Positions 11,498 to 50,304 of a DNA stretch of 64,000 nt are shown piece after piece. Positions within the stretch are counted from its first letter, which is position 1, and each line of letters starts with the position of its first letter. A program made the translations under genes and the position numbers. This DNA comes from Natronorubrum halophilum (GTDB taxonomy: Archaea; Halobacteriota; Halobacteria; Halobacteriales; Natrialbaceae): contig NZ_QQTY01000002.1 of NCBI RefSeq assembly GCF_003670115.1, forward strand, positions 1 to 64,000, in the 5' to 3' direction. The notes beneath the pieces are model-generated. The model saw only the letters and a list, made by a program, of their open reading frames with translations, did no database searches and was not told the origin of the DNA.

Positions 11498-12739
11498 CTA
11501 TCGCTCGGGCACTCGAAGCTCGATCGCTGCGCCCTGGCCGTAGCCGACGCACATCGTCGAGAGGCCGAGCCCGCCGCCCCGGCGCTGTAGTTCGTGGATC
11601 AGCGAGACCGGCAGGCGAGCGCCGGAGGCACCCAGCGGGTGACCGATGGCGATCGCGCCGCCGTTGACGTTGAACACGTCGTCGTCGAAGCCGAGTTCGT
11701 CCTGACAGTACAGCGTCTGACTGGCGAACGCCTCGTTGAGCTCCACGAGGTCGTAGTCCTCGCTCGAGCGACCGTTGCGTTCCCAGATGCCCCGAACGGC
11801 GGGGATTGGTCCGATCCCCATGACCGTGGGATCGACGCCGGCGACGTTGTGATCCTCGAGTTCGGCCATGATCTCGAGGCCTCCCGCTTCCGCGAACGCG
11901 CTGCTCGTGATCAGGACGCCGGCAGCGCCGTCGGAGATCTGCGAGGCGTTGGCGGCGGTGACGGTGCCGTCCTCCTCGAAAGCCGGCGGGAGATCGGAAA
12001 TCTTCTCTTTCGTGGTGCCGGGACGCAGGCCCTCGTCTCGCTCTACGAGTCCGTCATCGTCGACGGCTTCTTCTCGCGGGCCCCGCCCGCCCGAACGGTC
12101 CGCAGAGCGTTGCTCCGCGCTATCGCCGTCTGCACGGTGCGTCTCCGACGCACCGCTGGTTTCGATCGGGACGATTTCGTCGTCGAACTTCCCCGCTTCC
12201 GTCGCTTCGACCGCGCGTTGCTGGCTGCGCGCACCGTAGGCGTCCTGGCGCTCGCGGGAGATGTCGTGCTCTCGAGCGACCGTTTCGGCGGTCTGACCCA
12301 TCGCGAGCCCGGCCGCGTCGTACTGTTCTGCGATGCCGCCGTAGGAGTCGATTCCCTTCCGGCGCTCGTTGCGGGACATGTTCTCGACGCCGCCGGCGAT
12401 AATCACGTCGCGCTGGCCCGCCCGGATGGCGTCGCTGGCGCTCATGATCGCCTCGGCGGAGGAGGCACAGAGCCGGTCGATCGTCGTCCCCGGGACGTTT
12501 TCTCCGAGATCGGAGAGCAAGGCGATGACGCGGGCGATGTTGTTGCTCTGCTCGTTGACCTGCTTCGCACAGCCCCACCGAACGTCGTCGACGTCGTCGC
12601 CGGTGAGGCCGGTTCGCTCGAGCATCTCGTCGATGAGCGGGACCGAGAGTTCCTCGCTGCCGGTTTCGGCGAAGACGCCGCCGTGTTTGCCCTGTGGAGT
12701 TCTGACTGCCTGGACGATGACTGGTTGCTGGTCGCTCAT
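11498..12739 (-). CDS. Thiolase (acetyl-CoA C-acyltransferase) with palindromic insertion
   Basis: The 413-residue enzyme cleaves 3-ketoacyl-CoA or condenses two acetyl-CoA. The active-site residues are Cys91 (DRLCASSAEA), His367 (AIGHPLGASGARL) and Cys397 (MCVGYGQG). Residues about 195-225 (SGASETHRADGDSAEQRS and onward) are a hydrophilic insert before the conserved VDDDGLVERDEGLRPGTT segment. At DNA level (12065-12157) the insert contains a perfect 9-bp hairpin. The start at 12739 gives the typical thiolase N-terminus; an upstream 28-codon extension is unlike the family. It is divergent from the 3-hydroxyacyl-CoA dehydrogenase gene. Confidence 0.92.
   Translation of the reverse strand: MSDQQPVIVQAVRTPQGKHGGVFAETGSEELSVPLIDEMLERTGLTGDDVDDVRWGCAKQVNEQSNNIARVIALLSDLGENVPGTTIDRLCASSAEAIMSASDAIRAGQRDVIIAGGVENMSRNERRKGIDSYGGIAEQYDAAGLAMGQTAETVAREHDISRERQDAYGARSQQRAVEATEAGKFDDEIVPIETSGASETHRADGDSAEQRSADRSGGRGPREEAVDDDGLVERDEGLRPGTTKEKISDLPPAFEEDGTVTAANASQISDGAAGVLITSSAFAEAGGLEIMAELEDHNVAGVDPTVMGIGPIPAVRGIWERNGRSSEDYDLVELNEAFASQTLYCQDELGFDDDVFNVNGGAIAIGHPLGASGARLPVSLIHELQRRGGGLGLSTMCVGYGQGAAIELRVPER
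12065..12157 (-). repeat. In-frame palindromic insertion inside the thiolase gene
   Basis: This part of the gene encodes a hydrophilic stretch absent from the ordinary thiolase fold. It holds a perfect hairpin, CGGTGCGTC (12135-12143) with GACGCACCG (12147-12155) and a 3-nt loop. A second one is GCAGAGC-GTT-GCTCCGC (12102-12118) with one mismatch. The reading frame stays open through both. Compare the inserts in the D-lactate dehydrogenase, AhbAB, NadA, amidohydrolase and HMG-CoA reductase genes. Confidence 0.6.
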
Positions 12740-13159
12740 CGGTACCGATTGTCTCTCTACAGGAGGTAAAGAAACTCCGTTCTTCGCGTCTGGTCGCCTC
12801 GACGAATAATGCGAATTGTTCACACGGGTGATGCTATTTCTATTAACTCGGCGAAACGCCGTCGAATCGAACGGGTTGCTCGCGCCGGCAACGAAAAACT
12901 CCTCGACCTCCCCAACCGATTCGCTCGCTCCACTCGCTCATCCCTCGCGATTCGAGCCGCGACAGCCGCCGTCGCGGCTCAGCGCGCCAGCAGTGCTGCC
13001 ATCGCGGTTCAGCACGCCAGCAGTGCCGCCATCGTGGCTCAGCGCGGCCAACGATCCCCCATCCACGGCTGCTCCGGCACCCGGTATCTCGTTCGATCGA
13101 ACGGTGGCACCCGTCTCGAGAGAGGAACGTTTTTGATCGCGACTGGAGTCGACACACAC
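12740..13159. other. Divergent intergenic region with repeats
   Basis: These 420 bases lie between the divergent thiolase and hydroxyacyl-CoA dehydrogenase genes. The open frame running into the dehydrogenase is low-complexity Ala/Ser/Arg and is not taken as coding. The region contains a C-rich block at about 12895-12955 (CTCCTCGACCTCCCCAACCG and onward) that resembles dispersed repeats I associate with Natrinema-type genomes, then a 30-bp tandem repeat. Confidence 0.5.
12965..13054 (+). repeat. 30-bp tandem repeat, three units
   Basis: Units begin at 12965, 12995 and 13025. The first two share the 3' part CGCCAGCAGT and the pattern GCYGCCRTCGCGGYTCAGC; the third decays in its last 8 bases. 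The repeat lies 105-195 nt upstream of the 3-hydroxyacyl-CoA dehydrogenase start. The 30-nt period keeps frame, and could encode an Ala/Ser-rich decapeptide, but it lies outside any supported gene. Confidence 0.8.
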
Positions 13160-14721: not shown

Positions 14722-17700
14722 ATGTCTCTGGAGCCGAGCGCCGATCCGGCTGCCGACCGACGCGCGAACTACGACTATCAGAGCGACGACGTCGATCGTC
14801 CGGCGCTGGTCGACGACCTCGAGCGCCTCGTCGACTGCGACGTTCGTGCCGACTCCTACTCTCGCGAGCTGTACGCTACGGACGCGAGCCCCTACGAGAT
14901 GACGCCGATCGCCGTCGTCTTCCCGCGGTCGACGGCCGACGTCGTCGGCGTCGTCGAGTACTGTGCGGAGCGCGAGATTCCGGTCCTCCCGCGCGGCGGC
15001 GGAACGAGCCTCGCCGGGCAGTCGGTCAACCGCGCCGTCGTCCTGGACTTTACGCGTCACCTGAACGAGATCCTCGAGATCGATCCCGATGGCCGAACGG
15101 CGACGGTCCAGCCCGGAACGATCCTCGGAAGCTTGAACAACGCGCTCGCTTCCCACGAGCTAAAGTTCGCGCCCGACCCCGCGTGGGGTGACAAGAGCGC
15201 CATCGGCGGGGCGATCGGGAACAACTCGACGGGTGCACACTCGTTGAAGTACGGGAAAACCGACGCCTACATCGAGGAGTGCGAGGTCGTCCTCGCCGAC
15301 GGCTCCATCGCCGAGTTCGGCGAGGTTACGCTCGAGGAAATCGTCGAACGCGCCGACCCCGACGGCGACCTCGAGAGGCGGATCTACGCCGAAGTCGAGC
15401 GCATCATCGCGGAGGACGCGGACCGGATCGCGGAGACGTATCCGGATCTCAAGCGCAACGTTTCCGGCTACAATCTCGACCGGCTCGTCGCCGAGGTCCG
15501 CGGCGAGGAACTGCCCGGCGGTGAGGACACCGGCGAGCCCGGAACCGTTAACCTCGCGCGCCTGCTCGCCGGCAGCGAAGGCACGCTCGCGATCGTCACC
15601 GAAGCGACAGTGGCACTCGAACCCGTTCCGAACACGAAAGCGGTCTCGTTGCTGTGCTATGCGGACCTTCACGAGGCGATGCGCGACGTCGCGCCGATCC
15701 TCGAACACGAACCCGCCGCGGTCGAGGTGTTAGACGACGTGCTCATCGACCTCGCCCGCGACACCGCGGAGTTCGGTCCCGTTACGGAGATGCTCCCCGA
15801 CGGGACCAACGCCGTGTTGCTGGTCGAGTTCTACGCCGAGGACGAAGCCCACGGAGCGGAGCAGGTCGCCGGATTGCTCGCCGATCGACTGCCGTCGGCG
15901 ACGTCCGCCGGCGACGCTCCCGGGGATGCGCCGCGAAGCGACGCGGAGACGCTCGCGCTCGAGGCCCTCGAGGCGTACGAGAAAGAAGAGCGCGCGAAGC
16001 TCTGGAAGCTCCGGAAGTCCGGGCTCCCGATCTTGCTCTCGCGAACTACCGACGAGAAGCACATCTCGTTCATCGAGGACACCGCGATCCCGCCGGCGCA
16101 GCTACCGACGTTCGTCGAGCGCTTCGAGGAGATCCTCGAGGACCACGGTACGTACGCCAGCTTCTACGCCCACGCGGGCCCCGGCGTGCTCCACATCCGC
16201 CCGCTGGTGAACACGAAGACCGACGTCGGACTGGACCAACTCTACGGTATCGCCGACGACGTCACCGACCTCGTCGTCGAGCTGGGGGGCTCCGTCTCGG
16301 GCGAACACGGCGACGGCCGCGCTCGCACCCAGTGGAATCGGAAGCTCTACGGCGACGATCTCTGGCAGTCCTTCCAGGACCTGAAGACGGCGTTCGATCC
16401 CGACTGGATCCTGAACCCGGGACAGGTCGTCTTCCGCGGGGACGCCTCCGCGAGCGAGGCGAGCGGAGGCTCGTCACGGGTTTCCCGTGACGGTGAGTCG
16501 ACCGACCTGCGAGAGCACCTGCGATTCGATCCCGACTACGAGTTCGAGGCGGGCTTCGAGCCGAAACTCGAGTGGCAAAACGACAACGGGATGCAGGGAA
16601 TGGTCGAACTCTGCCACGGCTGTGGCGGCTGTCGCGGCGAGCAGGAGACGACCGGCGGCGTGATGTGTCCGACCTACCGGGCGAGCCGCGAGGAGATCAC
16701 GGCCACCCGCGGCCGCGCGAACGGGCTTCGGCAGGCGATGAGCGGCGACCTCGAGCCCGGAGAGGCCTTTTCCGACGAGTTCGTCGAGGAGGTGATGGGG
16801 CTGTGTATCGGCTGCAAGGGCTGTGCCATCGACTGTCCGAGCGAGGTCGACATGGCAAAGCTCAAAGCCGAGGTGACCCACGAGTACCACCAGCGAAACG
16901 GCTCGACGCTTCGCGATCGCCTCTTTGCGAACGTCGCGGAACTCTCAAAATGGGGTTCACGACTCGCACCGTTCTCGAACGCCGCGTCGAAGCTGCCGGG
17001 TGCGCGCACGTTCCTCGAGGCCACGATCGGTATCGGCTCGGACCGCCCGTTGCCGACGTTCCACGCGATCACGTTCCGTGACTGGTTCGAGCGGCGAGGC
17101 GACACGGCGGCCTCGGAAAACCGGACGGCGGAGCCGCGAACGGGGCGCGGCGGCGCTCGGGTCAGCGAGCGCGAGGCGGACCACAAGGTCGTGCTCTATC
17201 CCGACACCTACACCAACCACAACCACCCCGAGGCCGGAAAGGCCGCCGTTCGGGTGCTCGAGGCCGCGAACGTTCACGTTACGATCCCCGACGAACTGGG
17301 CGATACGGGACGGCCGGCGTTCTCGAAGGGCTTTCTCGAGCAGGCGAGAGAGACCGCCCGCAAGAACGTCAGGAACCTCGCGCCGCTCGTCGAAGACGGC
17401 TGGGACGTGGTCGTCATCGAACCCTCCGATGCGGTCATGTTGCAGTCGGACTACCTCGACCTTCTCTCCGACGAGTCGGCCGAACGCCTCGCCGGTTCGA
17501 CGTACGGCGTCTGCGAGTACATCGACACGTTCAGACTCGACGAGACGATCGCGTTCGATCCCGAGGCGGCCGACCAGCACCTCACGTACCACGGACACTG
17601 CCACCAGAAGGCGACGCGAAAGGACCATCACGCTGTCGGCGTTCTGCGGCGCGCGGGGTACGCCGTCGATCCGCTCGACTCCGGCTGCTGCGGAATGGCC

Positions 17701-17898
17701 GGCAGCTTCGGATACGAGGCCGAACACGCCTCGATGAGCGACGGGATCGCCTCGATCCTGTACGAACAGGTCGACGACAGCGAGGGCGAGCGCGTCGTCG
17801 CTCCCGGTGCCTCCTGTCGGACCCAACTCGAGGGCCGCCCCGGCGCGGACGAGGAGCCGCCGACGCCGATCGAGTTCGTCGACGCGGCGCTCGAGTGA
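14722..17898 (+). CDS. Fused FAD-binding and Fe-S D-lactate/glycolate dehydrogenase
   Basis: The 1058-residue protein joins GlcD-like and GlcF-like parts. Residues about 50-220 form the FAD-binding (VAO/PCMH) domain with LPRGGGTSLAGQSVNRAVVL. Residues about 300-560 form the FAD-oxidase C-terminal domain with SGEHGDGRARTQWN. Then come two Fe-S motifs, CHGCGGC (about 632-638) and CIGCKGCAIDCPSEVDM (about 694), and C-terminal cysteine-rich CCG segments with HGHCHQKA and DSGCCGMAG. Such fusions oxidise D-lactate or glycolate and feed electrons to the respiratory chain. At residues about 575-594 there is an inserted Ser/Ala-rich stretch coded by two perfect inverted repeats. Two more hydrophilic inserts stand near residues 393-410 and 795-815. 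Confidence 0.9.
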   Translation: MSLEPSADPAADRRANYDYQSDDVDRPALVDDLERLVDCDVRADSYSRELYATDASPYEMTPIAVVFPRSTADVVGVVEYCAEREIPVLPRGGGTSLAGQSVNRAVVLDFTRHLNEILEIDPDGRTATVQPGTILGSLNNALASHELKFAPDPAWGDKSAIGGAIGNNSTGAHSLKYGKTDAYIEECEVVLADGSIAEFGEVTLEEIVERADPDGDLERRIYAEVERIIAEDADRIAETYPDLKRNVSGYNLDRLVAEVRGEELPGGEDTGEPGTVNLARLLAGSEGTLAIVTEATVALEPVPNTKAVSLLCYADLHEAMRDVAPILEHEPAAVEVLDDVLIDLARDTAEFGPVTEMLPDGTNAVLLVEFYAEDEAHGAEQVAGLLADRLPSATSAGDAPGDAPRSDAETLALEALEAYEKEERAKLWKLRKSGLPILLSRTTDEKHISFIEDTAIPPAQLPTFVERFEEILEDHGTYASFYAHAGPGVLHIRPLVNTKTDVGLDQLYGIADDVTDLVVELGGSVSGEHGDGRARTQWNRKLYGDDLWQSFQDLKTAFDPDWILNPGQVVFRGDASASEASGGSSRVSRDGESTDLREHLRFDPDYEFEAGFEPKLEWQNDNGMQGMVELCHGCGGCRGEQETTGGVMCPTYRASREEITATRGRANGLRQAMSGDLEPGEAFSDEFVEEVMGLCIGCKGCAIDCPSEVDMAKLKAEVTHEYHQRNGSTLRDRLFANVAELSKWGSRLAPFSNAASKLPGARTFLEATIGIGSDRPLPTFHAITFRDWFERRGDTAASENRTAEPRTGRGGARVSEREADHKVVLYPDTYTNHNHPEAGKAAVRVLEAANVHVTIPDELGDTGRPAFSKGFLEQARETARKNVRNLAPLVEDGWDVVVIEPSDAVMLQSDYLDLLSDESAERLAGSTYGVCEYIDTFRLDETIAFDPEAADQHLTYHGHCHQKATRKDHHAVGVLRRAGYAVDPLDSGCCGMAGSFGYEAEHASMSDGIASILYEQVDDSEGERVVAPGASCRTQLEGRPGADEEPPTPIEFVDAALE
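16444..16490 (+). repeat. In-frame palindromic insertion inside the FAD/Fe-S dehydrogenase gene
   Basis: Two perfect inverted repeats sit side by side: GCCTCCGC (16444-16451) with GCGGAGGC (16463-16470), and TCACGGG (16474-16480) with CCCGTGA (16484-16490) around a TTT loop. They encode a Ser/Ala/Arg-rich stretch between the oxidase domain and the Fe-S part. The string TCACGGGTTTCCCG recurs in the AhbAB gene at 19841-19854. Confidence 0.65.
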
Positions 17899-17931
17899 GC
17901 GGGACCGCCCATCGGCCGTTTTCCACCGTCG

Positions 17932-19146
17932 TCACCCGTCGCTCCGGCTGACACGGAGCGGTTGGCGCGTCTCGTACGTGAGCACGCGCCAGAGCCACTC
18001 CATCGGACCGAACCGGAAGTACCGCAGCCAGAGTACCGACAGCGGAATCTGCACCGCCCAGATGGCCACGACGACGCCGAGCGCCTCGACTCGAGTCGTC
18101 TGCCCGAACAGTCCGAGTCCGTGGCCGTAGAAAATCGACGTGGCGAGTCCCGTCTGCAGGATGTAGTTGCTGAAGGCGGTCCGACCGACGGCGGCCAGCG
18201 ATCGGGTCAGAACCCCGTCGGGACGCCGCTGACAGTACCACATCACCATTCCGACGTACGCGACGGCGAGGGGAACGCTCCCCCAGTAGTTGAACTGTCG
18301 CCAAAACAGCGCCGTCCCGATCCCCCAGTCGCTCGCCTGAACGTACCAGACGCCGGCGAGAATCACGGCGAGCCCGCTGGCGGCCCCGAACCCGATCAGC
18401 CGGCGGTAGAACCGCGGGGGACGATCGTTCGTCAGTACGCCCCACTTGAACAGCGCCATCCCGAGGAGCATGGATCCGCCCACGCGCCAGACGGTGTATC
18501 CGAGGAACCCCGTGGTCTGTCGCTGGAACGCCGTCGGGATCCGGTGCCCCATCTGGTCTCCCCACCCGCTACGGTACGTCTCGACCTCGGTCCGGAGCGC
18601 CGTCTCGGGCGGTTGCCACGTACTCGCAATCGCGGACGGATCCAGCGTGAGTCCCGCCAGAATCTCGACGACGGAGGGGAACGCCAGCAGGCCGACTCCG
18701 AAGAGCACCAGCCTCCGCGGCGTATAGTCGCGAAGGAAGACGACGCCGAACGCACATAGGCCGTACGCGACGAGAATGTCGCCGTACCACAGCAGGTAGG
18801 CGTGTCCGAGGCCGAAGACGACGAGCCAACCGGACCGCCGACCGTACAATCTGAGCGCGGACCGCCCGCTCTTCTCGGCGCTCCGGATGAACAACAGGAC
18901 GCTCCCGCCGAACAAAAACGTAAACACCGTGATGAACTTCTGCTCCGCAAAGACGTGGCCGACGAACCAGGCCCAGTAGTTTACACCGGTCAAATCACCG
19001 TATATCGTCGGATTGGTGAGGACCGATCCGGGCATCGAAAACACCCGAACGTTGACCACCAGGATTCCGAGGAGTGCGACCCCTCGAAGCGCGTCGAGGG
19101 CGACGATACGTTCCGACGGCGGCGTTGGACCGTTCTCAGAACTCAT
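17932..19146 (-). CDS. DUF418 family membrane protein
   Basis: The 404-residue integral membrane protein begins with RIVALDALRGVALLGILVVN, the characteristic opening of DUF418/heparan-alpha-glucosaminide N-acetyltransferase-like proteins. About ten hydrophobic segments follow. A C-terminal section with GRTAFSNYILQT and GPMEWLWRVLTYE is the DUF418 signature. The family is predicted to transport or transfer acyl groups, but its function is not proven. It is convergent with the FAD/Fe-S dehydrogenase, with 33 nt between the stop codons. Confidence 0.9.
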   Translation of the reverse strand: MSSENGPTPPSERIVALDALRGVALLGILVVNVRVFSMPGSVLTNPTIYGDLTGVNYWAWFVGHVFAEQKFITVFTFLFGGSVLLFIRSAEKSGRSALRLYGRRSGWLVVFGLGHAYLLWYGDILVAYGLCAFGVVFLRDYTPRRLVLFGVGLLAFPSVVEILAGLTLDPSAIASTWQPPETALRTEVETYRSGWGDQMGHRIPTAFQRQTTGFLGYTVWRVGGSMLLGMALFKWGVLTNDRPPRFYRRLIGFGAASGLAVILAGVWYVQASDWGIGTALFWRQFNYWGSVPLAVAYVGMVMWYCQRRPDGVLTRSLAAVGRTAFSNYILQTGLATSIFYGHGLGLFGQTTRVEALGVVVAIWAVQIPLSVLWLRYFRFGPMEWLWRVLTYETRQPLRVSRSDG

Positions 19147-19292
19147 GAACCGTGCTCCAGTTCGAAACCGCGTATCCTCGGCAGTTCATCGCTCAGTTAT
19201 CCTCCAGCGTGGCCGCCGAAAAGCGGTGTTACCCGCCTTCCGCACTCCGTTTCGATCACCCGATGCGGGCGAGTACGGATCGAGAGTCGCTT

Positions 19293-20429
19293 TCAGTGTC
19301 CAACCAGTTCCTCGTACTGTGCGCCCGTCTGCTTCAGCGTCGCCGTCGAGTAGAGTCGCTCGTGATCGACGGGGAGGTACTCCGAAGCCAGTTCGTCGAT
19401 CCGTTCGTCGACGGCCGCGGAATCGCGACCGTGAATCATCGTAAACAGGTTGTACGACCAGCCTCGAGCGGGTCGGCGGGGCCGGTGATAACAGAGCGTG
19501 ACGTACGGTAATCCGCCCGCGCGTTCCCCCCAGTCGTCGAGGTTCTCGTCGGGGACGTCCCAGACGACCATACAGTTCGAGTCGAAGCCGGTGACGACGT
19601 GGTTCACGACGCAGCCGATACGCTTGATACAGCCGGCCCTCGCGAGGCGTTCGATTCCCTCGAGAACCCGCTCGACGTCCGCCTCGAGTTGCTCGGCGAT
19701 ATCTCGGTAGGGCGTTTTCGAGAGCGGGAACCCGTTTTGAATCGCGAGCAGGAGGTCGGCCTCGAACGCGGACAGATCGCCGGTCGCTTCCTCGCTGATT
19801 CGGGTCGCCGAGGCGTCGGTTCCCCCGCCCCGCGGCTGGCTCACGGGTTTCCCGCCTGCCGGCCCGTTCGAACGGGTCGCGGAACGGAGCTCCGCGTCGT
19901 TCGTTGCTGGCGCGAGGCCGGGCGTTGCGCTCTCACGGGCGAATCGATCCGCGTTCACCACGGGGAACTCGAGGTCGATGTAGTAATCCGTCAGCATCGG
20001 CAGGTCGAGCACCGCACAGCCGGTTCGGCGTTCGATCTCCGCGAGGATCTTCTCCCGCGTCTCCCGCGAGCCGGCGGTGACGACGAACCACATGTTCCAC
20101 TCGTGGTCGCGGGCGTAGTTGTGATTGACCTGCCGGTACTCGTTGATGACCGCCGCGACCTCGTCGAAGCGATCCGCCGGAGCCTGTACCGCGGCGAGCG
20201 TCGACGAGCCGATCACCGGCGGGTTGAGGACCGCTCCGAACCGGCGGACGATGCCCGCCTCGTGGAGGCGTCGAACGCGCTCGAGCGCGTCGGCCTCGTC
20301 GGTGCCGAGCGCAGAGCCGATGCCCCTGAAGGGACGCTCTTCGATTGGCACGCCGCTCTGGTAGCTATCGATAAGGACCGCGTCGACATCGTCGATGTGT
20401 TCGCGCCAATCCCCCGAACGGGTGCTCAT
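19293..20429 (-). CDS. ahbAB: Fused siroheme decarboxylase AhbA-AhbB (Lrp/AsnC-like)
   Basis: The 378-residue protein has two consecutive Lrp/AsnC-like halves. Residues about 8-155 show the AhbA pattern (VPIEERPFRGIGSALGTDE, NHNYARDHEWNMWFVV). Residues about 213-378 show the AhbB pattern (GFPLSKTPYRDIAEQL, CYHRPRRPARGWSYNLFTMI). Siroheme decarboxylase removes two carboxylates from siroheme to give didecarboxysiroheme in the alternative heme pathway of archaea. The fusion makes a separate partner unnecessary. The linker (about residues 158-212) is Ala/Ser/Arg-rich and palindromic at DNA level. Homology pipelines often label it an AsnC regulator; the heme role fits the motifs better. Confidence 0.8.
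   Translation of the reverse strand: MSTRSGDWREHIDDVDAVLIDSYQSGVPIEERPFRGIGSALGTDEADALERVRRLHEAGIVRRFGAVLNPPVIGSSTLAAVQAPADRFDEVAAVINEYRQVNHNYARDHEWNMWFVVTAGSRETREKILAEIERRTGCAVLDLPMLTDYYIDLEFPVVNADRFARESATPGLAPATNDAELRSATRSNGPAGGKPVSQPRGGGTDASATRISEEATGDLSAFEADLLLAIQNGFPLSKTPYRDIAEQLEADVERVLEGIERLARAGCIKRIGCVVNHVVTGFDSNCMVVWDVPDENLDDWGERAGGLPYVTLCYHRPRRPARGWSYNLFTMIHGRDSAAVDERIDELASEYLPVDHERLYSTATLKQTGAQYEELVGH
19841..19894 (-). repeat. Palindromic insertion in the AhbA-AhbB linker
   Basis: This segment contains TCACGGGTTTCCCG (19841-19854), identical to the hairpin in the FAD/Fe-S dehydrogenase gene. It also holds the perfect palindromes CCCGTTCGAACGGG (19863-19876) and CGGAGCTCCG (19885-19894). 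All lie in the interdomain linker and keep the frame open. Confidence 0.65.
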
Positions 20430-45224: not shown

Positions 45225-46403
45225 TTAGATCTCGAGCATCCGTTCGAGAGCGAGGCCCGCGAGTTCCTTCTCCTCGGGGGCGACCTCGATCACGTTGCGT
45301 TCGCGGCCGCGGACGAGTTCCTCGAGCACCCAGGTGAGGTAGTTCGGGTCGATCTGGCGCATGGCGTTGCAGTCCATGCAGGCGTCGCCGCACAGCGGCA
45401 GGACGTTCACCTCGGGATGCCAGCGCTGGAGGTGCTCGGTAAGGTGGATCTCGGTGCCGATGGCCCACGTGTCGCCGGGATCGGCCGTTTCGATCGTCTC
45501 GCAGATCGCCGCTGTCGAACCGGCCTCGTCGGCGGCCTCGACGACCTCGCGTCGGCACTCGGGGTGGACGATCACCTTCGCGTCGTCGTGCTCGGCCCGG
45601 ATCTGCTCGATGTGCTCTACGCGGAATCGCTCGTGGACCTGGCAGTAGCCGTCCCAGAGGATGATGTCGCTCTCGGCGACCTCGTTGGCATCGCCGGACA
45701 CAGTCCGGCTGCTCGAGGTGTGTCGCGCCTCGCTGTCTTTCCCATCGGAATCCCACGGGTCCCATTCGGCGATCCGGTCTTCCATGCCCATCCGGTGGGC
45801 GGTGTTCTCCCCGAGGTGCTTGTCGGGGAGGAAGAGGACCTTATCGCCCCGCTCGAAGGCGTACTCGAACGCCTTGTGCGCGTTCGAGGAGGTACAGACG
45901 AGTCCGCCCTGACTCGCACAGAAGGCCTTCAGATCCGCGTAGGAGTTCATGTACGTGATCGGAACGATGTTCGCGTCCGGCGCGGCGGCGGTGATCTCGG
46001 CCCACGCGCTGTCGACCTGGAGCGCCTCGGCCATCCCGGCCATCGGACAGGAGGCCTCCATGCTCGGGAGGATGACGGTCTGGTCGTCGTCGGTGATGAT
46101 ATCCGCGCTCTCGGCCATGAACGTGACGCCGGCGAAGATCACGTACTCGGCGTCCGCGGCGGCGGCTTCCGTCGACAGTTGATAGGAGTCGCCGACGAAA
46201 TCGGCGTGCTCGACGATCTCGCGTCGCTGGTAGTTGTGGCCGAGGATCACGACGTCGTCGCCGAGTTCCTCGAGTGCCGCTTCGATGCGTTCGGTCCGTT
46301 CTCCCTCCTCGAGTTCCCGGTAGCGGGGCGGTAACTGCTCGAGGGTGTCGTATTTGAACAGACTCAGTTCGGTATCCAGCTCCGTCGTTTCCATTGTAAC
46401 CAT
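45225..46403 (-). CDS. nadA: Quinolinate synthase A with palindromic insertion
   Basis: The 392-residue protein condenses iminoaspartate with dihydroxyacetone phosphate to quinolinate and holds a [4Fe-4S] cluster. Likely cluster ligands are the Cys in CPMAGMAEA-like sequence, the Cys in GLVCTSSNAHKAF or HPECRREV, and CGDACMDC near residue 340. The start at 46403 is favoured because AGGTGA lies 6 nt upstream, an ideal Shine-Dalgarno site; ATG 46394 is the alternative. At about residues 217-245 a hydrophilic Ser/Asp-rich insertion interrupts the fold and is coded by a perfect 6-bp inverted repeat (45694-45708). Confidence 0.94.
   Translation of the reverse strand: MVTMETTELDTELSLFKYDTLEQLPPRYRELEEGERTERIEAALEELGDDVVILGHNYQRREIVEHADFVGDSYQLSTEAAAADAEYVIFAGVTFMAESADIITDDDQTVILPSMEASCPMAGMAEALQVDSAWAEITAAAPDANIVPITYMNSYADLKAFCASQGGLVCTSSNAHKAFEYAFERGDKVLFLPDKHLGENTAHRMGMEDRIAEWDPWDSDGKDSEARHTSSSRTVSGDANEVAESDIILWDGYCQVHERFRVEHIEQIRAEHDDAKVIVHPECRREVVEAADEAGSTAAICETIETADPGDTWAIGTEIHLTEHLQRWHPEVNVLPLCGDACMDCNAMRQIDPNYLTWVLEELVRGRERNVIEVAPEEKELAGLALERMLEI
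45655..45750 (-). repeat. In-frame palindromic insertion inside nadA
   Basis: CCGGAC (45694-45699) and GTCCGG (45703-45708) form a hairpin with a 3-nt loop ACA. The segment around it encodes the Ser/Arg/Asp-rich stretch SEARHTSSSRTVSGDANE. The conserved parts of NadA on both sides are intact. The limits are judged from the protein pattern. Confidence 0.5.
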
Positions 46404-48633: not shown

Positions 48634-50304
48634 TCACGCGACGCGGCCGTCGAAGACGATCTCGCCGTCGACGAGCGTCATCGCCACGTCGATCTCGTCG
48701 ATCCGAACGGACTCCGCCCAGGGCGATTCCTCGAGCACTACGAGATCCCCCCGCTTGCCGACCTCGAGCGTGCCGAGTCTGTCCTCGTCGAAGCCGGCGT
48801 AGGCCGCGCCGCGGGTGTACGCCCGTAGTGCCTCGGTGACCGACAGCCGCTGTGCCTCGGTCGGTGCGTTGACCGCGTGGTGGATCCCCAGCAGGGGATC
48901 GAGCGGCATGCAGTCCGAGCCGAAGGCGAGGGGCACGCCCGCCTCGAGCACCCGCCGGAAGCGGTTCGTTCGGCTCCGTCGCTCCCTGCCCAGCCGCTGG
49001 TCGTAGAGCCCACCCTCTCCGGCCCACTGGTGGAAGTTCGGCTGCATCGAGGCGACGATTTCGGCTTCAGCCATGCGCTCTATGTGCTCGTCGGTCGCGA
49101 GTTCGACGTGTTCGATCCGGTGGCGCGAGCCCCCGGGATCGCTCGTGGTTTCGAAGGCGGACAGCGCCTCCTCGATCGCCGCGTCCCCGATGGCGTGGGC
49201 GGTTAGCTGGAATCCCGCGTCGTCGACTCGGTCGACGATCTCCTCGAGTTCCGCGGGGGTGATGACCCACTCGCCGTCGGCGCGCTGCGCCGACGAGGCT
49301 CGCGACCCGCCGGATCGCTCACCGCTGTCCTCCGGGTCGGGGCCGACACCGCCGCTCGTGTCGAGGTCGACGCCGTCGGTAGTCCAGTCGGGATCGCCTC
49401 CACCGTCGGGTTCGTACGGCTCGAACAGCTTCGCCGTCCGGGATCCGATACTCCCGTCCGTGTAGGTTTTGATCGCGCCCGTCTGCACGCGGTCGCTGCC
49501 GCCGTTCGTTGTCAGCCCCACCTCGAGTACGCTCTCTAGGTGATCGATCCAGTAGTTGATCCGCACGCGCGTTGGCAGGTCGCCCGCCGCCTCGAGGTCG
49601 CGGTACACTCGCGGAGAGCGGGAGTTCCGGACCATGTCGTGGACCGCGGTGACGCCCGTCGAGGCGGCGTGCTCGAGACCGGCGGTGACGAGGTCCAGGG
49701 TTTCGTCGTAGCCGGGAGAAATGTGCGAACGGACGGTCTCGGCCGCGTCTTCGACGACGACGCCGGTGGGCTCGCCGGTCGCCTCCGAGCGCCGAACGTC
49801 GCCCTCGGGGAGATCGTCGGCGAGACGCTCGAGGGCGACCGAGTTCAGCGACGCGGCGTGCATGTCGATCCGCAGGGCGACGACGGGGCGCTCGGTGCTC
49901 ACCCGATCGAGGTGCTCGCGCGTGAGGTAGGCGCGGTCGTCACCCTCCCACTCGCTTTCGTCGTAGCCAAAGCCCTGAATCCACTCGCCGTCCGTTTCGT
50001 CGGCGCGCGCGGAGAGGCGTTCGACGCAGCCCTCGGAACCGGTCGCGTCCGAGAGGTCCGCGTGGACGAGGAACCGGCCCGTGTTTTCGACGTGCGTGTG
50101 GGCGTCGATGAAGCCGGGCAGGACGACTCGGCCCTCGCAGTCGATCACGTCGGTTTCGACGCCCTCGAGGAACTCGATCTCGTAGGTGTCGCCGAGGCGA
50201 ACGATCTCGCCGTCGCGGATCGCGACCGCCTCGTGGACGGTGTCGGGTTCGGTAAGCGTGTGGACCGCCCCGTTGATCAGCAGGCGGTCGGCGGCGTCGG
50301 TCAT
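48634..50304 (-). CDS. Amidohydrolase (YtcJ-like, amidohydrolase 3 family) with palindromic insertion
   Basis: The 556-residue zinc hydrolase has the N-terminal LLINGAVHTLTEPDTVHEAV and metal-binding LPGFIDAHTHVENTGRF near residue 60. A middle VRINYWIDHLESV precedes TAHAIGDAAIEEALSAF (His), SRHRIEHVELA (His) and FGSDCMPLDPLLGIHHAV (Asp), the usual YtcJ ligands. The substrate is unknown. An insertion at residues about 310-345 (GGVGPDPEDSGERSGGSRAS and onward) contains a perfect 9-bp hairpin in DNA (49275-49295). The start at 50304 puts the conserved N-terminus at once. Confidence 0.88.
   Translation of the reverse strand: MTDAADRLLINGAVHTLTEPDTVHEAVAIRDGEIVRLGDTYEIEFLEGVETDVIDCEGRVVLPGFIDAHTHVENTGRFLVHADLSDATGSEGCVERLSARADETDGEWIQGFGYDESEWEGDDRAYLTREHLDRVSTERPVVALRIDMHAASLNSVALERLADDLPEGDVRRSEATGEPTGVVVEDAAETVRSHISPGYDETLDLVTAGLEHAASTGVTAVHDMVRNSRSPRVYRDLEAAGDLPTRVRINYWIDHLESVLEVGLTTNGGSDRVQTGAIKTYTDGSIGSRTAKLFEPYEPDGGGDPDWTTDGVDLDTSGGVGPDPEDSGERSGGSRASSAQRADGEWVITPAELEEIVDRVDDAGFQLTAHAIGDAAIEEALSAFETTSDPGGSRHRIEHVELATDEHIERMAEAEIVASMQPNFHQWAGEGGLYDQRLGRERRSRTNRFRRVLEAGVPLAFGSDCMPLDPLLGIHHAVNAPTEAQRLSVTEALRAYTRGAAYAGFDEDRLGTLEVGKRGDLVVLEESPWAESVRIDEIDVAMTLVDGEIVFDGRVA
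49268..49375 (-). repeat. In-frame palindromic insertion inside the amidohydrolase gene
   Basis: CGTCGGCGC (49275-49283) and GCGCCGACG (49287-49295) pair perfectly around a 3-nt loop GCT. The coded stretch is rich in Gly, Ser, Asp and Arg and lies between two conserved parts of the barrel. Confidence 0.55.

Follow-up and report, generated by a model that had tools for sequence, protein, structure and literature searches.

A 51-bp double-hairpin palindromic element dispersed in Halobacteriales, and a probably coincidental 14-mer match in Natronorubrum halophilum

Do two unrelated genes that contain the same 14 nucleotides owe them to a common insert, or to chance? Within the 64,000-nucleotide stretch of Natronorubrum halophilum DNA analysed here (the window), the 14-mer TCACGGGTTTCCCG occurs exactly at 16474-16487 (copy 1) and 19841-19854 (copy 2), each time on the + strand, in host genes read from opposite strands: a FAD/Fe-S dehydrogenase gene (+) and an AhbAB-like gene (-). 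The first-pass annotation had correctly reported this arrangement, and took the match as the strongest hint of a common origin for the palindromic inserts.

Counting the 14-mer across the 4.67-Mb genome, a check named by that annotation, recovered two copies, only those of the window, where Markov models of order 1 to 5 predict 0.05-0.09 per genome. In the window, exact direct repeats of at least 14 bp number 129, against ~92 in an order-5 Markov sequence, and in 124 other Natrialbaceae genomes the 14-mer was counted 7 times. Given these three results, the match is compatible with chance and weak as evidence of kinship, and the weight placed on it was not borne out. A comparison of lineage-specific inserts across 460 kb gave one pair with a 14-mer in common, against 0.175 expected from random segments, which is unremarkable. 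The 14-mer was likewise rejected as a genomic repeat, with its two genomic copies and chance-level counts among relatives. The non-random aspect of this locus is the site of copy 1, which is a 51-bp in-frame insertion of a dispersed repeat family.

Copy 1 lies in a gene (14722..17898, +) encoding a 1058-aa FAD-linked oxidase/4Fe-4S/CCG-domain dehydrogenase (Pfam PF02913, PF01565, PF13183, PF02754), orthologues of which were present in all 31 relatives searched. The in-frame element (16444..16494, +) was matched at 16441-16494 with 73.4 bits by R1, a covariance model of the element with 54 positions, and places the peptide (D)ASASEASGGSSRVSRDG between the FAD-oxidase C and Fer4 domains, bringing the stretch bounded by NPGQVV and LRF(D) to 39 aa, 17 more than the 22 aa of most relatives. 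Its first, nearly fixed half is hairpin A (16444..16470, +; GCCTCCGC-gagcgaggcga-GCGGAGGC), and its second, variable half is hairpin B (16472..16492, +; CGTCACGGGtttCCCGTGACG), a perfect 9-bp stem with a 3-nt loop that contains the 14-mer. Folding of this copy returned exactly hairpins A and B on both strands (z of -4.6 on the + strand and -5.3 on the - strand). In the AlphaFold2 model of the protein, residues 566-670 have a pLDDT of ~25, the alignment being shallow and the model poor in that region.

The gene carrying copy 2 (19293..20429, -) encodes an AhbAB-like/NirD-like two-domain protein (NirDL-like HTH and AsnC ligand-binding domains) with a long inter-domain linker, exceeding the length found in most relatives; varied longer linkers also occur in other genomes. 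Copy 1 is indeed the longer hairpin, as had been noted, and copy 2 retains only CGGGtttCCCG. With filters off, the best covariance-model score across 19700-20050 was 3.5 bits, against 73.4 bits for copy 1, and copy 2 folded no better than shuffled sequence (z -0.3); because of this score and the lack of excess folding, copy 2 is probably a coincidence, outside the recognisable element family. We therefore regard as quite improbable the earlier proposal that the two 14-mers are copies of one insert: the two do sit 3.4 kb from each other in linkers of increased length, with 14 identical bp and a GGCT slightly upstream of each, but hairpin A is missing at the AhbAB site and sharing of a 14-mer is chance-compatible even among inserts. 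A common origin of palindromic coding inserts, as first proposed, thus holds for copy 1, a member of a dispersed and structure-conserved family, and is not supported for the AhbAB copy; similarly, the common flanks that the annotation had suggested seeking link copy 1 to dozens of further genes and do not link it to copy 2.

The ~51-bp element consists of two tandem hairpins, A with an 8-bp stem and B with a 9-bp stem (columns 4-11/23-30 and 32-40/44-52, respectively, of A3, a gap-free alignment of 12 copies that was not fitted to structure). Hairpin A (consensus GTCTCCGC, gagcganngcga-type loop, GCGGAGGC) is nearly fixed, with 96.7% of its stem pairs retained across 77 copies, and the stem of hairpin B, 7-10 bp long, drifts in sequence with its pairing kept. 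Across the same 77 copies, two-sided changes were found in 16 of the 17 stem pairs, including 9/9 in hairpin B. Covariation reached 0.458 in A3, against 0.181 +/- 0.027, and 0.541 in the 77-copy alignment, which was made to the covariance model and so favours structure, against 0.177 +/- 0.010 when shuffled and 0.05-0.11 when slid. Such stem covariation is a property of nucleic acid, and a 27-bp DNA core is identical to the base across unrelated genes and intergenic sites. Both observations make it very improbable that the inserts arose by ordinary low-complexity linker growth selected for acidic, flexible haloarchaeal loops, even though their peptides are rich in Ser, Gly and Asp and lie in linkers or loops: under that process, unrelated loci would share the peptide while their synonymous codons were randomised, the opposite of what is observed. 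The loop of hairpin A follows the pattern GA-GC-GAN-GC-GA. Sequences of the GCGAAGC type form unusually stable DNA mini-hairpins.

Searching with the insert DNA gave matches in 49 of 125 Natrialbaceae genomes, mostly to its first 33 bp, and the core TCCGCGAGCGANGCGAGCGGAGG was found with at most 2 mismatches in 60 of the 125, its reversed control giving only a handful of matches. The covariance model R1 extended this distribution to 115/125 Natrialbaceae genomes at E <= 0.01 and to 323/392 Halobacteriales genomes at E <= 0.001, with match lengths of mostly 51, 54 or 60 nt and with copy numbers per genome that are, in many genomes, lower bounds. Outside archaea the search covered plasmid and phage collections; 4 of 72,556 plasmid records matched, all of them haloarchaeal, and three of these matches lie in RefSeq-annotated coding sequences, in the same frame (S9 peptidase WP_253484632.1; P-type ATPases WP_225336624.1 and WP_253485100.1). 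The Natronorubrum genome itself holds about a dozen R1 matches at E < 0.02, and most of those without coding assignment look intergenic. Its coding copies lie in the genes for the FAD dehydrogenase, MetX, an acyl-CoA ligase and probably glycerol-1-phosphate dehydrogenase (a host whose NCBIfam assignment is weak), and its SdhA gene has a weaker, decayed copy of 25.8 bits. On the - strand of the window, a possible diverged member with a hairpin B-like GTCGGCGCgctGCGCCGAC (49273..49311; scored by the covariance model at 22.8 bits, with E = 0.005 for the window) lies in a lineage-specific coding insert, present relative to three of three relatives. Tandem pairs of hairpins with 3-nt loops were in excess both here (6 against 0.25) and in another genome, G109 (12 against 0.1), an excess that led to intergenic arrays; intergenic copies are common in other genomes, and in G109 and G107 they form part of arrays of several hairpins. 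Most high-scoring Natrialbaceae copies lie within genes, and extragenic ones exist too. The element is thus shown to be dispersed throughout Halobacteriales, in intergenic DNA as well as within protein genes that are unrelated to one another. Genome-wide counts of hairpins and of recurrent stems with 3-nt loops were not retained, since codon words, CCTCGAG among them, made up most of their modest excess.

In-frame copies were identified in at least 17 named protein families and are nearly always read as GVSASDASGGSS..SDG, adding ~17 acidic, Ser/Gly-rich residues to their host. According to NCBIfam, these hosts include IleRS, MetRS, SdhA (the succinate dehydrogenase/fumarate reductase flavoprotein), an ETF alpha-like protein, ornithine carbamoyltransferase, carbamoyl-phosphate synthase, 8-oxoguanine glycosylase, Kae1-Bud32, aconitase, GatE, MetX, acyl-CoA ligase, adenine deaminase, isopropylmalate/tartrate dehydrogenase and HMG-CoA reductase. 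Antisense copies were found in glutamate synthase (GltB) and in a histidine kinase. All six frames of the consensus copy are open, so that stop codons do not force the frame bias, yet sense frame 0, acidic and free of Arg and Lys, is used in ~20 gene families, and the antisense copies, in 2, keep the same codon register. This usage indicates that insertion keeps to codon boundaries. The frame bias is explained in part by selection for an acidic loop that the host tolerates; since one antisense frame is equally acidic, the sense bias seems to go beyond such selection, and the ~20:2 dominance of sense copies counts against blind insertion, which predicts no such bias.

Empty alleles define the insertion precisely. 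For SdhA, the filled locus L311 reads ...AATTCGGAG[51 bp]GGCGAGCG... and the empty locus L130 ...AATTCGGAGGGCGAGCG..., with no duplication of the target, and MetRS carries a clean 51-bp insertion that is missing from the MetRS of this genome and from locus L135. Clean empty alleles without target duplication are thus available for the FAD dehydrogenase, SdhA and MetRS; shorter homologues exist for acyl-CoA ligase and HMG-CoA reductase. At the FAD locus, 52 of the 63 scorable loci from named haloarchaea have the standard linker length, nine (Haloarculaceae and other Halobacteriales) have a different form, 12 aa longer, and two, Natronorubrum sulfidifaciens and Natronolimnohabitans sp. A-GB9, have the same kind of insert. 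In a tree of 98 FAD-gene sequences, the four filled tips are scattered (4 parsimony changes), with empty nearest neighbours at distances of 0.035-0.17. The insert nevertheless sits at the identical codon in several lineages, and within the 77-copy set the TCACGG form of hairpin B is found in all filled FAD alleles and only in those. Because the codon and this locus-specific hairpin B are common to separate lineages, the sequences seem to fit an old insertion followed by losses, or allele transfer, better than repeated fresh insertion.

These empty sites also bear on whether a mobile element is needed at all. Template switching has been documented both as a source of hairpins and as a means of their maintenance (PMC8794818), and local fold-back hairpins could have been perfected by quasipalindrome correction. 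Perfect hairpins with stems of at least 8 bp, of varied sequence, are abundant in the coding inserts of this genome (7 against 0.5 expected) and of G109 (5 against 0.4), and some inserts look locally templated (260730 region). Local fold-back, however, explains neither the nearly identical hairpin A at unrelated loci of many genera nor the empty alleles that have neither arm, and template switching as a sufficient explanation is distinctly unlikely; it may still account for the drift of hairpin B and for some other inserts.

Alternatively, the hairpins could act in transcripts as functional RNA or DNA structures (in processing, termination or protein binding), the coding copies being exaptations. 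Both stems co-vary strongly, intergenic copies are numerous and the sense strand is favoured within genes, as such a function would have it. Against it, copies lie, in either orientation, within genes coding for essential enzymes, the element is missing in close orthologues, both strands fold about equally well, and no Rfam family was matched: at gathering score, Rfam detected only 5S rRNA and tRNA in the window and nothing at seven array loci. This reading is unlikely.

We consider it fairly probable that the family is a haloarchaeal ~51-bp double-hairpin palindromic element that has spread in a non-autonomous, selfish manner, copy 2 of the 14-mer being coincidental. Its copying or insertion would likely proceed through a single-stranded hairpin, and the genic copies that survive would be those at codon boundaries in inter-domain or surface loops. 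The perfection of the stems may reflect selection on the mobile form, template-switch repair between the arms, or both. The dominance of sense copies and the shared codon at the FAD locus count against this reading. More tentatively, with slightly less than even confidence, the element may be an order-wide, self-spreading one that enters essential genes in frame and keeps its hairpins while their sequence changes. It would then parallel the Rickettsia coding palindromes independently, in archaea, and undescribed machinery would probably move or repair it in the form of single-stranded hairpin DNA.

Regarding such machinery, no mobilising enzyme was found, and R1 showed no TnpA/TnpB locus with the element at each of its two ends. 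This matters for a comparison with the PATEs and small mobile repeats of Haloquadratum walsbyi, remnants of IS200/IS605 transposons with fused near-terminal palindromes of ~52 bp. As described (PMC3119063), PATEs are haloarchaeal, palindromic and devoid of target duplication, as at the SdhA and MetRS sites here, with minimal, terminal-only forms of 52 bp, and the Natronorubrum genome has TnpA and TnpB genes. However, the 38 TnpA/TnpB loci gave a single R1 match (28.9 bits) and no pair at their ends, and the described terminal-only PATEs are fused via one palindrome and not via two different tandem hairpins. They are also tied to IS605-type ends, and in-frame insertion into host protein genes does not feature in the description consulted. 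Among archaeal elements PATEs come closest, but a link to IS605 ends was not supported for the double-hairpin element, and a PATE-like origin is improbable; a distant relation could escape R1 alone.

The closest functional parallel comes from bacteria. Rickettsia palindromic elements (RPE) and those of Wolbachia (PMC3767692, PMC2229807, PMC10969869) are likewise dispersed palindromes found between genes and in frame within unrelated, often essential genes, including aminoacyl-tRNA synthetases, with no known mobiliser. RPE of Rickettsiales are 100-150 bp long and form a long stem-loop with ~12-bp terminal inverted repeats (PMC3767692, PMC2229807, PMC10969869). The haloarchaeal element shares their dispersal between genes and in ORFs and their frame-preserving insertion, but is ~51 bp long, is made up of two tandem hairpins, one fixed and one co-varying, where RPE have a single long stem-loop bounded by inverted repeats, and is distributed across an archaeal order. 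It works like RPE but is not a member of that class, from which its length and architecture set it apart. The literature searched, mainly open-access, contained no description of an archaeal coding palindromic element, and novelty is unproven. Protein-coding palindromic repeats have so far been regarded as peculiar to Rickettsiales. With a second case in archaea, whose copies are very many, whose empty sites can be identified and whose hosts can be cultured, it would become possible to test how such elements move, why frame and sense strand are so constrained, and how loops are gained by proteins. The element accounts for many odd Ser/Gly/Asp insertions in haloarchaeal enzymes, which R1 can be used to annotate.

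Other known palindromes are more remote. Those in the mitochondrial coding sequences of nematomorphs (PMC6649704) also keep perfect pairing within genes, but are long perfect repeats of up to 284 bp and form no dispersed family with a conserved half. REP/BIME units, associated with RAYT transposases (PMC12306157, PMC2817692), are short, numerous and palindromic, often in intergenic arrays; they share a consensus and rarely extend into coding sequence, whereas the haloarchaeal element has one freely varying stem and genic copies, its high-scoring Natrialbaceae members departing from the mostly extragenic habit of REPs. Y1_Tnp genes occur in the Natronorubrum genome.

The FAD-linked oxidase/4Fe-4S dehydrogenase gene carries a second 51-bp in-frame insertion (window 17095-17145), missing in 6 of 6 relatives, which contains weaker hairpins (CGAGGC..GCCTCG and GCCGCG..CGCGGC) and was not matched by the covariance model of the double-hairpin element. 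Perfect hairpins, in tandem pairs in several cases and of unrelated sequence (e.g. CGGTGCGTCtccGACGCACCG), were recovered from other lineage-specific coding inserts at window 12059-12157, 45690-45734 and 49276-49413, and at about 79636 and about 260730 of G000:C2 (N. halophilum genome, contig C2). Coding inserts were hairpin-rich in this genome (7 hairpins vs 0.5 expected) and in the relative G109 (5 vs 0.4), and the same count revealed no hairpin richness in those of the relative G107.

At one such insert (G000:C2:260730-260774, locus L100), copies of the 13-bp direct repeat GGACGTCTCCGAG lie on both sides, and one arm of the insert's hairpin copies the adjoining repeat, a sequence arrangement that looks like duplication followed by fold-back synthesis. 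In the succinate dehydrogenase flavoprotein gene SdhA, a decayed element copy (G000:C2:357792-357839, L351) displays a 9-bp deletion and broken stems; Natrinema-group genomes harbor a perfect copy at the identical codon.

Intergenic hairpin arrays were located at G000:C2:167732-167781 (L095 7732-7781), G109:C1 about 983265 and about 1194913, and G107:C3 about 730721, the sites in these three genomes including loci L120, L144 and their neighbours. They combine perfect hairpins with 3-nt loops and conserved linkers (e.g. ..GATCCCGCG-AACCRTGCRA-ACGGGYGC..), the stems varying between species by paired changes while the linkers remain unchanged. None of the seven array loci searched matched an Rfam family.

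Elsewhere, the window holds two tandem 5S rRNA genes (1-306), identical over a 110-bp stretch, and a tandem Ala/Ser-rich repeat (RASSAAIVAQ.., 12809-13120) read through by a long ORF upstream of a 3-hydroxyacyl-CoA dehydrogenase-like gene; a start codon set too far upstream is the probable cause.
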